Shown one piece after another: positions 53,316 to 57,345 of a stretch of DNA of 64,000 nt. Location of the stretch: positions 1,674,001 to 1,738,000 of the forward strand of contig NZ_CP034245.1 in NCBI RefSeq assembly GCF_003931875.1, written 5' to 3'. The notes under the pieces were generated by a model. It was not told the DNA's origin. It was given only the letters and a program-made list of their open reading frames with translations, and did not search any database. Both the position numbers and the translations under genes were made by a program. This DNA comes from Microbacterium sp. 10M-3C3. Lineage in GTDB: Bacteria > Actinomycetota > Actinomycetes > Actinomycetales > Microbacteriaceae. Position 1 is the first letter of the stretch. Each line of letters opens with the position of its first letter.

Positions 53316-53540
53316 ATGACCGCACTTTCGACACCGACCGACGACACCGCTGTGCTCGAGTACCGTCTGACCGCCATGGACCGCTGCGACTCGTGCGGCG
53401 CCCAGGCGTACATCGCCGCCGAGGTCAACGGCAGCGAGCTGCTCTTCTGCGCCCACCACGGGCGCAAGTACGAGGAGAAGCTGCGCAGCATCGCGACCTC
53501 GTGGCACGACGAGACCGCGCGCCTCAACGAAGCGGTCTGA
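53316..53540 (+). CDS. DUF7455 small zinc-finger-like protein
   Basis: A 74-residue actinobacterial protein with a compact zinc-binding motif: DRCDSCGAQAY (CxxC) and LFCAHHGRKYEEKL (CxHH). Function unknown. Its neighbourhood by parE is conserved in actinobacteria. AGGGGAGG precedes the ATG. The gap upstream has the inverted repeat TGCCCG / GCGGGCA with one mismatch. Its stop is only 3 nt from the convergent racemase-like gene. Confidence 0.9.
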   Translation: MTALSTPTDDTAVLEYRLTAMDRCDSCGAQAYIAAEVNGSELLFCAHHGRKYEEKLRSIATSWHDETARLNEAV

Positions 53541-53543
53541 CCC

Positions 53544-54575
53544 TCACACGTACTCCCTCGCGACCATCGGCGAGACGCGCACCGCGATCTCCTCGCCGAT
53601 GGTCGCGAGTCTTTCTGCGACGTCCGTCGCCGAGTGCGGCGCATCCGCCCCCCACATCGCCACCGGCTGACCGATCGTCGCCCCCGGCCACGCCGCGAGG
53701 ATCGTGCGCGTCGGCTCGACGGCGATCACACGGGCAGGACCACCGGGCGTGCCGGCGCTGATGAGACCGCCGACGGGCGTCGGCAGGCCGTGCATGCTGC
53801 CGACATCGACGATCGCGCGCTGCCCCGTCACCGCCACGACTCCGGCCTCCAGCCGGCCGATCGGCTCCAGGCCCAGCTCGTCCTCGCCCGGCCCGCCGGC
53901 GGGACGGATGCCGTAGGCGAACGCGCCGATCCGCACGAGGTCCTCGCGGAACTCCGGTCGCCCGAACCCGGCTGCGCTCGCGGCCAGGTGCGCGAAGCGC
54001 GGCGACAGACCCGCCGCATCCAGCGTCTCGCGCGCGGCGAGGAACAGCTCGCGCGCGGCGTCGTCCTCCGCATCCGACGCCTCGGCGATGTGACTCCACA
54101 CGCCCTCGACGGCGAGGGAGCCCCCGGTGTGCAGCTCGGCGGCGCGGGCGACCGCGTCCGGCCACTCCTCGGGACGCACGCCATTGCGATGCAGCCCCGT
54201 GTCGATCTTCAGGTGGACGCGCGGACGCGCGTCGGCGCCGAGTCGCGCGACGTCCTCGAGCAGATCCCGGTCACCCACGCCCAGGTCGAGGTCGGCCGCG
54301 ACGGCCGTGCGGATGTCGTCGTCGGTGGCGAGGATCCACACGAAGATCCGGACGTCGTCGCCGAGGACCGCGCGGACCCGCGCGCCGGTGTGCGCGTCGA
54401 ACGCGCCGAACCAGCGCACGCCCTCCGCGTAGGCCCGTCGCACGATCGGCTCGAGGCCGTGGCCGTACGCGTCGTTCTTGACGACGAGCATGTGCGTGGC
54501 CGGCGACACCTGCGCCCGGATGCGGCGGAGGTTGCGCGCGAAGCGCTCGAGGTCGACGACGAGCCGGACGCTCAT
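53544..54575 (-). CDS. Alanine racemase-like subunit with PLP lysine but lacking catalytic tyrosine
   Basis: A 343-residue protein with an alanine-racemase TIM barrel. The PLP lysine is K33 in LVVKNDAYGHG; HLKIDTGLHRNGV, AHLAASAAGF, VRIG (R215) and FAYG (Y221) match PLP-phosphate and barrel residues. The C-terminal domain is degenerate: where the family has G-Y-G-x-T-Y, this reads VVAVTGQRAIVDVGS (catalytic Tyr absent), and the usual VGRVSMD is AVEPTRT (Met/Asp absent). The terminal MWGADAP...REYV is normal. ATG overlaps the upstream gene's stop (ATGA), so the two are made together. See the split racemase finding. Confidence 0.85.
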   Translation of the reverse strand: MSVRLVVDLERFARNLRRIRAQVSPATHMLVVKNDAYGHGLEPIVRRAYAEGVRWFGAFDAHTGARVRAVLGDDVRIFVWILATDDDIRTAVAADLDLGVGDRDLLEDVARLGADARPRVHLKIDTGLHRNGVRPEEWPDAVARAAELHTGGSLAVEGVWSHIAEASDAEDDAARELFLAARETLDAAGLSPRFAHLAASAAGFGRPEFREDLVRIGAFAYGIRPAGGPGEDELGLEPIGRLEAGVVAVTGQRAIVDVGSMHGLPTPVGGLISAGTPGGPARVIAVEPTRTILAAWPGATIGQPVAMWGADAPHSATDVAERLATIGEEIAVRVSPMVAREYV

Positions 54576-55207
54576 GGGCTGTCCTCCCGTGTGGCCCGCG
54601 CTCCGGCGAGGGCGATCAGCTCGGCAGCCGACCAGCCGGTCGCGTGCGTCCACGCGCCGAGCGAGGGAGCGCCCGTCCGGGGGTCGCCGAAGTAGGTCAC
54701 CACCGCGCCGCGCTCGATCACGGTGTCACCGATGTCGACGACGGACACGTCCATGGCGATGCGGCCGACGAGGCGGTGCAGCGCCCCCGCGATGTCGACG
54801 TCGACGCGGCCGCCGAGCATCCGGACGACGCCCTGCGCGTATCCGCCCGTCACGAGCGCGATGCGCGTGTCCGCGGCCGCGCGATGCGCGTAGCCGTACG
54901 AAACGCCCTCCCCCGCCATCAGTGGCTTGGTCGACAGCACTCGGCCACGCAGCGTCAGAGCCGGCACGGCGTCGGGATCCCCACCGGGAAGGCCGTACAG
55001 CGTCAGCGCGTCGAGCGCATCGTCGGCGGCGGCTCCGAGCGTGTCGCGCACCCACTGCTCGCCGTGGCCCCATGCGTCGCAGGCGAGGGCGGGCGTGTCG
55101 GAGGGTGTGCCGGCGCGGGCGAGGTCGAGGTTGCGACGCAACGCCGCACGCGAGAGCAGCGCCGTGGTGCCCGTGCCGCTCGGGGGTCCCGCGTGCCGCT
55201 CGTCCAC
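54572..55207 (-). CDS. Alanine racemase-like subunit with catalytic tyrosine but lacking PLP lysine and barrel
   Basis: A 211-residue protein that is essentially the alanine racemase C-terminal domain fused to a short N-terminal remnant. Catalytic Tyr is kept as Y104 in GEGVSYGYAHRA, and the Met/Asp substrate site as M152/D153 in GRIAMDVSVVDIG. The remnant ALACDAWGHG aligns with VVKADAYGHG of the family, so the PLP lysine is Ala (A42). About 170 residues of barrel are missing. GTG 55207 has TAGTCT 7 nt upstream (leaderless). ATGA overlap with the next gene. Confidence 0.82.
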   Translation of the reverse strand: MDERHAGPPSGTGTTALLSRAALRRNLDLARAGTPSDTPALACDAWGHGEQWVRDTLGAAADDALDALTLYGLPGGDPDAVPALTLRGRVLSTKPLMAGEGVSYGYAHRAAADTRIALVTGGYAQGVVRMLGGRVDVDIAGALHRLVGRIAMDVSVVDIGDTVIERGAVVTYFGDPRTGAPSLGAWTHATGWSAAELIALAGARATREDSP

Positions 55208-56275: not shown

Positions 56276-56306
56276 CCCCCGCCGCGGGTCGAAGGACCGC
56301 CCGGTT

Positions 56307-56475
56307 CCTGAGCCCATCGACGAGGTTCCTGAGCCCGTCGAAGCACCGCCCGCCACTGCGGTCCGGATCTGAGTTCGTCGAAGCCCGCTGCGGTCCCTGA
56401 GCTTGTCGAAGGGCCCGCCGGCCCTTGACCTCGTCGAAGGGCCCGCCGGCCCTTGACCTCGTCGAAGGGCGAGCC
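56307..56475 (+). repeat. REP-like repeat array 3' of the GIY-YIG gene (six degenerate copies)
   Basis: The motif CCTGAGCTTGTCGAAGGG and variants begin at 56307, 56328, 56368, 56396, 56424 and 56452. The last three are exactly 28 bp apart. Read on the plus strand, these are in opposite orientation to the array beyond the GIY-YIG gene. Confidence 0.85.
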
Positions 56476-56513
56476 GCTCCCCCAGTCGCCGAAGTGCCCG
56501 CGCGTCTGCCGCG

Positions 56514-56813
56514 TCATTCGATGTCTGGCGGCTGCCCACGGGCAAGCACCGGCAGGTCCGCGCTGCGGCCCTCAACGAGCGCACGCTTCTTCGCCCTGCT
56601 CCAGCCGTGAAGCTGCCGCTCGCGGGAGAACGCGTCTTCCACGCGATCGAATTCCTCGATGTAGACGAGCGCGACCGGGCGACGTCGCCGGGTGTACTTC
56701 GCCGCCAACAGATCATCGTGATTGTGCTGCCACACGCGGGCCTCGACATCTATCGCTGTGCTGCCGACGTAGTAGCTGCCATCCCGGCAGCTGAGGATGT
56801 ACGTCCACGCCAT
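56514..56813 (-). CDS. GIY-YIG nuclease-domain protein
   Basis: A 99-residue single-domain GIY-YIG protein of the UPF0213/YhbQ kind. Motifs: WTYILSCRDGSYYVGST (GIY-YIG equivalent), RVWQHN, AKYTRRRRPVALVYIEEF, and FSRERQLHGWSRAKKRAL with the conserved Arg and Glu. Such small proteins cut DNA or are inactive. Here the gene sits between two inverted arrays of one REP-like motif. ATG 56813 is chosen; no Shine-Dalgarno is visible, so the start is uncertain. Confidence 0.88.
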   Translation of the reverse strand: MAWTYILSCRDGSYYVGSTAIDVEARVWQHNHDDLLAAKYTRRRRPVALVYIEEFDRVEDAFSRERQLHGWSRAKKRALVEGRSADLPVLARGQPPDIE

Positions 56814-56920
56814 CCGCACAGCGTGCCGCAGCGGAAGGGTTTCGGATACAGCCGAACCCCGTTGTCGGTGTATAGCGGTCGCCCCCGGCGCTCAGGGGAG
56901 GACGACCCGCCACATCGACA

Positions 56921-57345
56921 GCCCCTCGACAGGCTCAGGCACCAGGACGCTCTCCACCCGCTCGTGCGGCGGGTCGGCCCTTCGACAAGCTCAGGGACCG
57001 GCGTGCCTCTACGCACTCGTGCGGTCAGCCGGCCCTTCGACAGGCTCAGGGACCGGGCGCTCTCCACGCGCTCGTGTCGCGGGGCCGGCCCTTCGACAGG
57101 CTCAGGGACCGGGGCAATTTCCACGCGCTCGTGCAGCGGGGGCGGCCCTTCGACAAGCTCAGGGACCGGCGCACTCCCCACGCACTGGTGTAGTCGGCCG
57201 GCCTTCCGACAAGCTCAGGGCCCGGGACGCTCTTCACCCGCTCGTGCAGTCAGCCGGCCCTTCGACAGGCTCAGGGACCGGGACACTTCTCGGGCAGCGG
57301 GGGCGGCCCTTCGACAGGCTCAGGGACCGGGGCGCGCTCGCGGAG
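56921..57345 (+). repeat. Tandem array of eight ~56-bp units built on TTCGACARGCTCAGGG
   Basis: TCGACA[AG]GCTCAGG begins at 56926, 56982, 57037, 57093, 57150, 57206 (one mismatch), 57262 and 57311. Spacing is 55-57 bp except the last (49). A second conserved block, CTCTCCACGCGCTCGTGC, lies mid-unit. Units differ by substitutions and small indels. The 558-bp stretch 56814-57371 holds no recognisable gene apart from this array. Confidence 0.9.

Follow-up and report, generated by a model that had tools for sequence, protein, structure and literature searches.

Two adjacent genes on the minus strand of the window (by which we mean the whole stretch of 64,000 nucleotides analysed here) together carry the domains of an alanine racemase (Alr). 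The upstream gene of the two (54572..55207, GTG start) encodes a 211-aa partner, or C-domain, subunit, and the downstream gene (53544..54575, ATG start) encodes a 343-aa barrel subunit with the PLP site. The stop and start codons of the two genes overlap in an ATGA (54572..54575, minus strand), as the earlier note had reported, and this suggests that their translation is coupled. Each protein has a sole Pfam match, Ala_racemase_N (PF01168) with 165.8 bits for the 343-aa protein and Ala_racemase_C (PF00842) with 85.6 bits for the 211-aa protein, scores that exclude chance; both proteins fall below the 168-bit cut-off of the NCBIfam alr model TIGR00492, at 129.1 and 76.5 bits respectively.

The 343-aa subunit consists of a complete PLP barrel followed by a C-terminal domain without Tyr265 and Met312 (Alr numbering): the stretch with the catalytic tyrosine is deleted and no Met/Asp site remains. 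Lys39, the Alr residue that binds PLP and acts as a catalytic base, is present as Lys33 (codon 54477..54479; all codons given here are on the minus strand). The protein also retains, in a C-terminal segment, the last part of its own PLP site, with Glu328 (53592..53594) in place of Alr Tyr354, the position that sets alanine specificity, and has Glu165 (54081..54083) at Alr position 169, beside the entryway. The 211-aa subunit is made of a relic N-terminal arm and an Alr C-terminal domain holding the residues that would act on the site of the other subunit: Tyr104 (54896..54898) corresponds to the other catalytic base, Tyr265', and Met152-Asp153 (54749..54754) to Met312' and Asp313'. It has Ala42 (55082..55084) at the PLP-lysine position, and about 170 barrel residues are missing. 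The N-terminal TIM barrel with PLP lysine that marks an Alr is found in the pair, and the C-terminal domain with Tyr265 and Met312/Asp313 in the 211-aa subunit only. The earlier note had listed the barrel, Lys33 and the missing Tyr and Met/Asp site of the 343-aa protein, and Tyr104, Met152/Asp153, Ala42 and the barrel loss of its neighbour, and this description holds.

The complete 3.39-Mb genome of the window has an intact one-gene Alr of 372 aa elsewhere (around C1:880515-881585), so the pair is not the cell's ordinary alanine racemase. A divergent ATP-grasp gene (PF14397; 55253..56275, plus strand) starts 45 bp from the pair, and a CofE-like amide ligase (PF01996; 57372..58070, minus strand) occupies the place of MurT-GatD; we treat both as context only. 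Several further elements were seen nearby. A small DUF7455 gene (53316-53540, plus strand) adjoins the pair and parE in most loci and is likewise present where there is no pair. Repeat arrays of the CCCTTCGACAAGCTCAGGGACCGG type lie at 56904-57333 and 56303-56480, with a spacing of about 56 nt and, in an inverse-oriented array, of 28 nt, and a GIY-YIG gene (56514-56819) sits between the two arrays.

Distribution and surroundings of the gene pair

We ran a profile of the 211-aa protein on 299 genomes of the same family, of which 296 gave a match, ordinary Alr C-domains included. All 30 loci returned by the family profile search, the window's among them, hold the same two genes. We denote the arrangement with the C-domain gene first as type I; 33 further pairs with this gene order were fetched, so that 34 type I pairs from 19 genera by code (window included) were compared. 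The fetched loci are the best-scoring matches of the 299-genome search together with chosen ones, and their number is not a measure of prevalence. Outside the set of 34 are the pairs seen in G258, G268, G188, G126, G054, G125, G055, G077 and G033, the loci L039-L068, and L089 (partial), L095 (not needed), L112 (other racemase) and L115 (duplicate). The earlier note had proposed looking in related genomes for both halves side by side, and in all 38 fetched pairs they are indeed neighbours, end to end on one strand, with the conserved domain of the second gene starting -3 to 48 nt from the stop of the first.

Where the listed protein matches name a carrier, it is chiefly a Microbacterium, Leifsonia, Diaminobutyricibacter or Diaminobutyricimonas; a few are labelled otherwise. 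Many of the small halves are entered in their source records as "alanine racemase C-terminal domain-containing protein" or as plain alanine racemase. An order-wide search with the partner profile gave a match in 287 of 297 genomes, and among the matches listed the split type occurred only in family f1. Two genomes outside f1, G310 and G426, had been taken as candidates for split racemases and were rejected, as their fetched loci (L089 and L088) hold ordinary one-chain Alrs. The split system is lineage-wide and not a local oddity. The pair is absent from 3 of the 13 genomes of the Microbacterium-like genus g1, and is therefore dispensable. Ten of 35 small genomes of the family have it by Pfam pattern (six g31, three g68 and G015), one of the six g31 pairs being broken over two contigs. 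Among 30 genomes checked, 26 are type I, and the 18 of these that belong to neither g78 nor g74 all have an ordinary one-gene Alr by Pfam as well. At one locus (L097, genome G225) two type I pairs stand in tandem, with ATP-grasp genes between them.

Of 33 type I loci, the window included, 32 have the pair flanked by rpoD and parE; in the remaining one (L078), rpoD was not seen in the fetched stretch. Beside the pair we found MurT-GatD at 21 of these 33 loci (identified by NCBIfam names, with scores far below the cut-off), the CofE-like ligase with or without the ATP-grasp gene at 11, including the window, and neither at one; the ATP-grasp gene itself is present at 8. MurT-GatD and the CofE-like ligase occur together at none of the 33, each replacing the other. 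MurT-GatD amidates D-Glu of the stem peptide, and the CofE-like/ATP-grasp pair may modify the same peptidoglycan position. MurT-GatD adjoins the pair in L008, L070, L092 and others. A fixed operon with MurT-GatD, suggested by L008, was rejected: in several loci the pair is on the opposite strand. In 15 genomes considered at this locus, CofE-like plus ATP-grasp genes stand without the pair in three, MurT-GatD without the pair in six, and neither cassette was detected in five (two of f1, three of other families); the fifteenth, G015, has the pair with MurT-GatD. Pair and cassettes thus share a locus rather than form a fixed operon, and the link of the pair to cell-wall peptides is positional, as the cassettes persist without it.

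Residues divided between the two subunits

In the Alr dimer, we take each active site to be made of Lys39, Lys129, Arg136, His166 and Arg219 (and Tyr354) from its own chain and, besides Tyr265', of Tyr284', Arg290', Arg309', Met312' and Asp313' from the other chain. For the entryway residues and the two catalytic bases, Lys39 and Tyr265', we followed PMC3485190. We aligned the 343-aa protein with the best 120 of its 2,112 database matches (n=121), and the 211-aa protein with 119 of the best 120 of its 561 matches (n=120), among which P0003 is the window's own copy. Lys33, Lys123, Arg130, His162, Ser200, Arg215 and Gly217 are invariant in all 121 aligned barrel homologues, and Tyr104, Tyr123, Arg129, Arg149, Met152 and Asp153 in all 120 aligned partner homologues, none of which has a lysine at the PLP-lysine position (one row is gapped there). 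A sequencing error, a misannotation or a decaying pseudogene would account for the fact that the two pieces together resemble one gene, and for nothing else seen here. The same arrangement in 33 further pairs and the invariance of the functional residues exclude a frameshift or a decaying gene, and the halves are complementary rather than a cut gene; we regard this explanation as already refuted.

A table of residues was then compiled for 43 pairs, namely the 34 of type I, five of type II (the reversed gene order of g78, described below), three fused chains of g74, each counted as two halves, and G015, with 17 one-gene Alrs for comparison. All 43 barrel subunits retain Lys39, Lys129, Arg136, His166 and Arg219, and in all 43 Tyr265 is deleted, the deletion around it having slightly variable edges in type I. 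All 43 partners have Tyr265 and Met312, and none has Lys39. The remaining cross-interface positions of the partner are nearly as constant: Arg290 in 42 (the exception, G015, has Phe at 290'), Arg309 in 40, Tyr284 in 40 with Phe in three, and Asp313 in 40 with Asn in three. Loss in the barrel subunits is incomplete at two positions: Tyr284 persists in eight of the 34 type I subunits and Asp313 in 26 of them, and both are still present in all five of type II. The G015 barrel subunit also has Asn at position 43. The clearest division is that of Lys39, Lys129, Arg136 and His166 throughout the barrel subunits versus Tyr265 throughout the partners. In none of the 43 pairs are both catalytic bases on one subunit, and the finding that the earlier note said would overturn it, relatives with intact catalytic residues in both genes, appeared in none of them.

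These results suggest that the two proteins very probably make up a PLP racemase of fold type III, that this enzyme is an obligate heterodimer having just one active site, and that it goes back to a duplicated Alr gene whose copies underwent complementary loss. The 343-aa subunit would bind PLP on Lys33 in its own barrel. The 211-aa C-terminal domain would cover that barrel, as the second monomer does in the Alr homodimer, and would supply Tyr104 as the second catalytic base together with Tyr123, Arg129, Arg149, Met152 and Asp153. The mirror-image site would be dead, because one subunit has lost the barrel and the other the tyrosine. Both subunits, each modelled alone, fit Alr structures in their predicted form. 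The complementary retention of residues, their conservation, the co-location of the genes, the fold and the recurrence of the split are read directly from the sequences; from these and the predicted structures, on which the functional claims on the pair are based, we infer the physical heterodimer and its activity. PLP proteins switch reaction easily, and with evidence drawn from sequence one could imagine that the pair binds PLP or an amino acid without racemisation, as a sensor or in another PLP reaction. We consider this highly improbable, as both bases of a two-base racemisation and the main supporting residues are kept across the pair.

The proposed heterodimer shares with Alr/DadX (TIGR00492; PDB 1vfh, 5fag, 1xfc) the fold, the PLP lysine and a two-base site drawn from two chains, the lysine of one and the tyrosine of the other. 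However, the known Alr/DadX enzymes are homodimers with two equal sites, whereas the pair consists of two unequal genes with seemingly one possible site. Serine palmitoyltransferase belongs to fold type I, another PLP fold than that of the racemase pair, and its SPT1 retains most of its PLP domain, unlike the 211-aa subunit. The SPT1/SPT2 enzyme, as described in PMC6148460, is a PLP heterodimer with presumably a single active site at the interface, in which one subunit has no PLP lysine and whose family relatives are homodimers; it works alike and is no relative of the pair. The principle of a single-site PLP heterodimer is thus known from SPT1/SPT2 (PMC6148460) and appears to be new for the Alr family; among the titles and abstract openings listed from the open-access literature we found no report of a split or heterodimeric Alr.

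Variant forms and their descent

Four g58 genomes (L017, L018, L019 and L027) have kept a C-domain subunit of about 345 aa, whose barrel can be recognised but has lost the PLP lysine and the Arg136 motif. Such a long partner with a dead barrel is the remnant expected if duplication was followed by death of the barrel and then by its excision. In a fifth g58 genome, G057, the partner is short, and the two long-partner lineages placed in trees fall inside the short-partner clade, so that either excision took place more than once or the length was regained.

In g78 there is a second pair, of type II, with the barrel gene first (L091, L093, L094, L113 and L114). Its deletion around the tyrosine is different and shorter, with canonical residues elsewhere, and searches with PF00842 and PF01168 found no one-gene Alr in any of the five g78 genomes. 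In all three g74 genomes a single reading frame holds a barrel half, a linker and a C-domain half, with the bases divided between the halves (L109:7578-9728, plus strand; L110:8051-9991, minus strand; L111:7348-9735, minus strand). These genomes also carry another one-gene Alr-like protein (G274 by sequence, L112; the other two by Pfam). The one in G274 (L112:2451-4505, minus strand) is a one-chain protein with the lysine, the tyrosine in GYERT, and Met-Asn for Met-Asp. The reduced genome G015, a single contig of 927,303 bp with a completeness of 98%, yields just one match each to PF00842 and PF01168, and these two are a pair in type I order at the usual place (L142:7726-9646), with Asp at 354 and Asn at 169.

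A protein with a D-Ala-D-Ala ligase domain is present in all nine of these genomes (five g78, three g74 and G015). As g78 and G015 have no one-gene Alr, the split enzymes appear to be the one route to D-Ala that the Alr family offers there; uptake or a transaminase could also provide it. Of the two PF01063 proteins of G015, one lies in a 365-aa frame, and the other was fetched and is an aminodeoxychorismate lyase (452 bits versus a cut-off of 273). For g78, with four PF01063 proteins per genome, two were compared: that of G278 is above the aminodeoxychorismate lyase cut-off, and that of G238 has its best match in the same family, just below the cut-off. Type II and the fusion seem to do the work of the housekeeping Alr.

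These forms also bear on the idea that the 343-aa protein has its function outside the pair, perhaps teamed with the housekeeping Alr, and that the 211-aa protein is a regulator or chaperone. In the trypanosome prozymes and the ODC antizyme inhibitor, a dead paralogue pairs with its live counterpart or with the regulator of that counterpart; activation by a dead paralogue is known from prozymes, and the window genome does have a housekeeping Alr. Yet g78 and G015 have no one-gene Alr that could act as the partner, g74 joins two such halves in one reading frame, and a mere regulator would not need the six cross-interface residues that are invariant in 120 partner homologues. The dead partner of those systems is an activator or decoy, whereas the 211-aa subunit would supply a catalytic base. 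We therefore consider a regulatory role very improbable. The obligate heterodimer by duplication and complementary loss, as the earlier note had proposed, gains support from the division of residues in 43 of 43 pairs, from the dead-barrel partners of g58 and from the g74 fusion.

In the barrel tree, type I lies on one side of a branch with support of 100/100, and type II and the fusion are placed among one-gene Alrs. The C-domain tree also has type I on one side of a branch, with lower support (86/94). Both trees separate the 34 type I pairs into groups of 18 and 16 with identical membership, as expected if the two subunits descend together. In AU tests, all split barrels as one clade gave p = 0.051, and type II plus the fusion p = 0.225. 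Separate origins of the splits are favoured, though not proven, because of the opposite gene order and the different limits of the deletions.

It is this recurrence of the split, down to a fused form, that is the striking part. Alr is a textbook symmetric enzyme and an antibacterial target (PMC4517790); if our reading is true, a two-site homodimer has repeatedly become a one-site heterodimer. The natural series would run from the homodimer through the heterodimer with a dead full-length barrel (four g58) to the barrel-excised, the reversed and the fused forms; with it one could test directly how complementary loss gives rise to obligate heteromers, and even which residues each half can afford to lose.

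Substrate of the type I pairs

Tyr354 of Alr is tied to alanine specificity, and Lyr and Bar, which are lysine racemases, have Thr or Ala instead (PMC3485190). This position holds Glu in all 121 aligned barrel homologues, and Glu (17) or Asp (17) in the 34 type I pairs, none of which has the tyrosine of Alr/DadX. All five type II and all three fused racemases have Tyr, as do 16 of the 17 one-gene Alrs, the other having Trp. In the window, Glu328 aligns with the Tyr of NYE in 2dy3. Position 169 is likewise acidic in type I (Glu 18, Asp 16); the other 26 proteins have N, G, Y or V there. An assignment of Glu165, at position 169, to the inner gate was withdrawn, since the inner layer consists of 170 and 354 in PMC3485190; the substrate argument rests on position 354.

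The lysine and broad-specificity racemases Lyr, Bar and BsrV (PDB 4dza, 4dyj, 4beu) have the same fold as the pair. In Lyr and Bar, too, Tyr354 is replaced, at a site tied to substrate specificity (PMC3485190); these enzymes are homodimers with Thr or Ala at 354, and the pair differs in having an acidic Glu or Asp there (Glu328 in the window), the tyrosine being replaced by neither Thr nor Ala.

Acidic residues at 354 and 169 would suit a substrate with a second amino group. Because the tyrosine of alanine specificity is replaced by Glu or Asp, we suggest a diamino acid substrate, and give about even chances that type I is an ornithine, diaminobutyrate or lysine racemase serving the peptidoglycan cross-bridge of the B2 type. 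Alanine is probably not the substrate of the window pair: the genome has an intact Alr elsewhere, and all 34 type I pairs have Glu or Asp at 354. Of the earlier note's "alanine racemase" split into complementary subunits, the division stands in 43 of 43 pairs, and the name is doubtful for the window pair in view of Glu328 and the intact Alr. Two observations run counter to a diamino acid substrate. G015 has Asp354 although Pfam finds no Alr-family racemase in it besides the pair, and the 211-aa half occurs (P0056) in a metagenome bin that bears the name M. enclense, a species reported to have an L-lysine wall (PMC10757982).

The same heterodimer might instead be a second alanine racemase that adds to the D-Ala supply or regulates it. 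Its closest relatives and structures are alanine racemases, and in G015, where a D-Ala-D-Ala ligase domain is present, the pair is the sole Alr-family racemase and the fetched PF01063 protein is an aminodeoxychorismate lyase rather than a D-amino acid transaminase. This reading is possible, if on balance unlikely, given that Glu or Asp stands in every type I pair where alanine specificity needs Tyr354, that Pfam shows an ordinary one-gene Alr in all 18 type I genomes checked outside g78 and g74, and that type II and the fusion, the seeming replacements of the housekeeping Alr, keep Tyr354. We give a shade under even odds to the wider reading of a dedicated D-diamino acid heterodimer racemase in a large part of the family, together with a split that evolved again in g78 and g74 and there replaced the housekeeping Alr.

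We found no paper in the open-access literature on the enzyme that is the source of D-ornithine or D-diaminobutyrate in type B2 walls. If type I is a D-diamino acid racemase, it would name that source, in a family (Microbacteriaceae) where the diamino acid of the type B2 wall is a trait of taxonomic value, as stated in PMC10757982.
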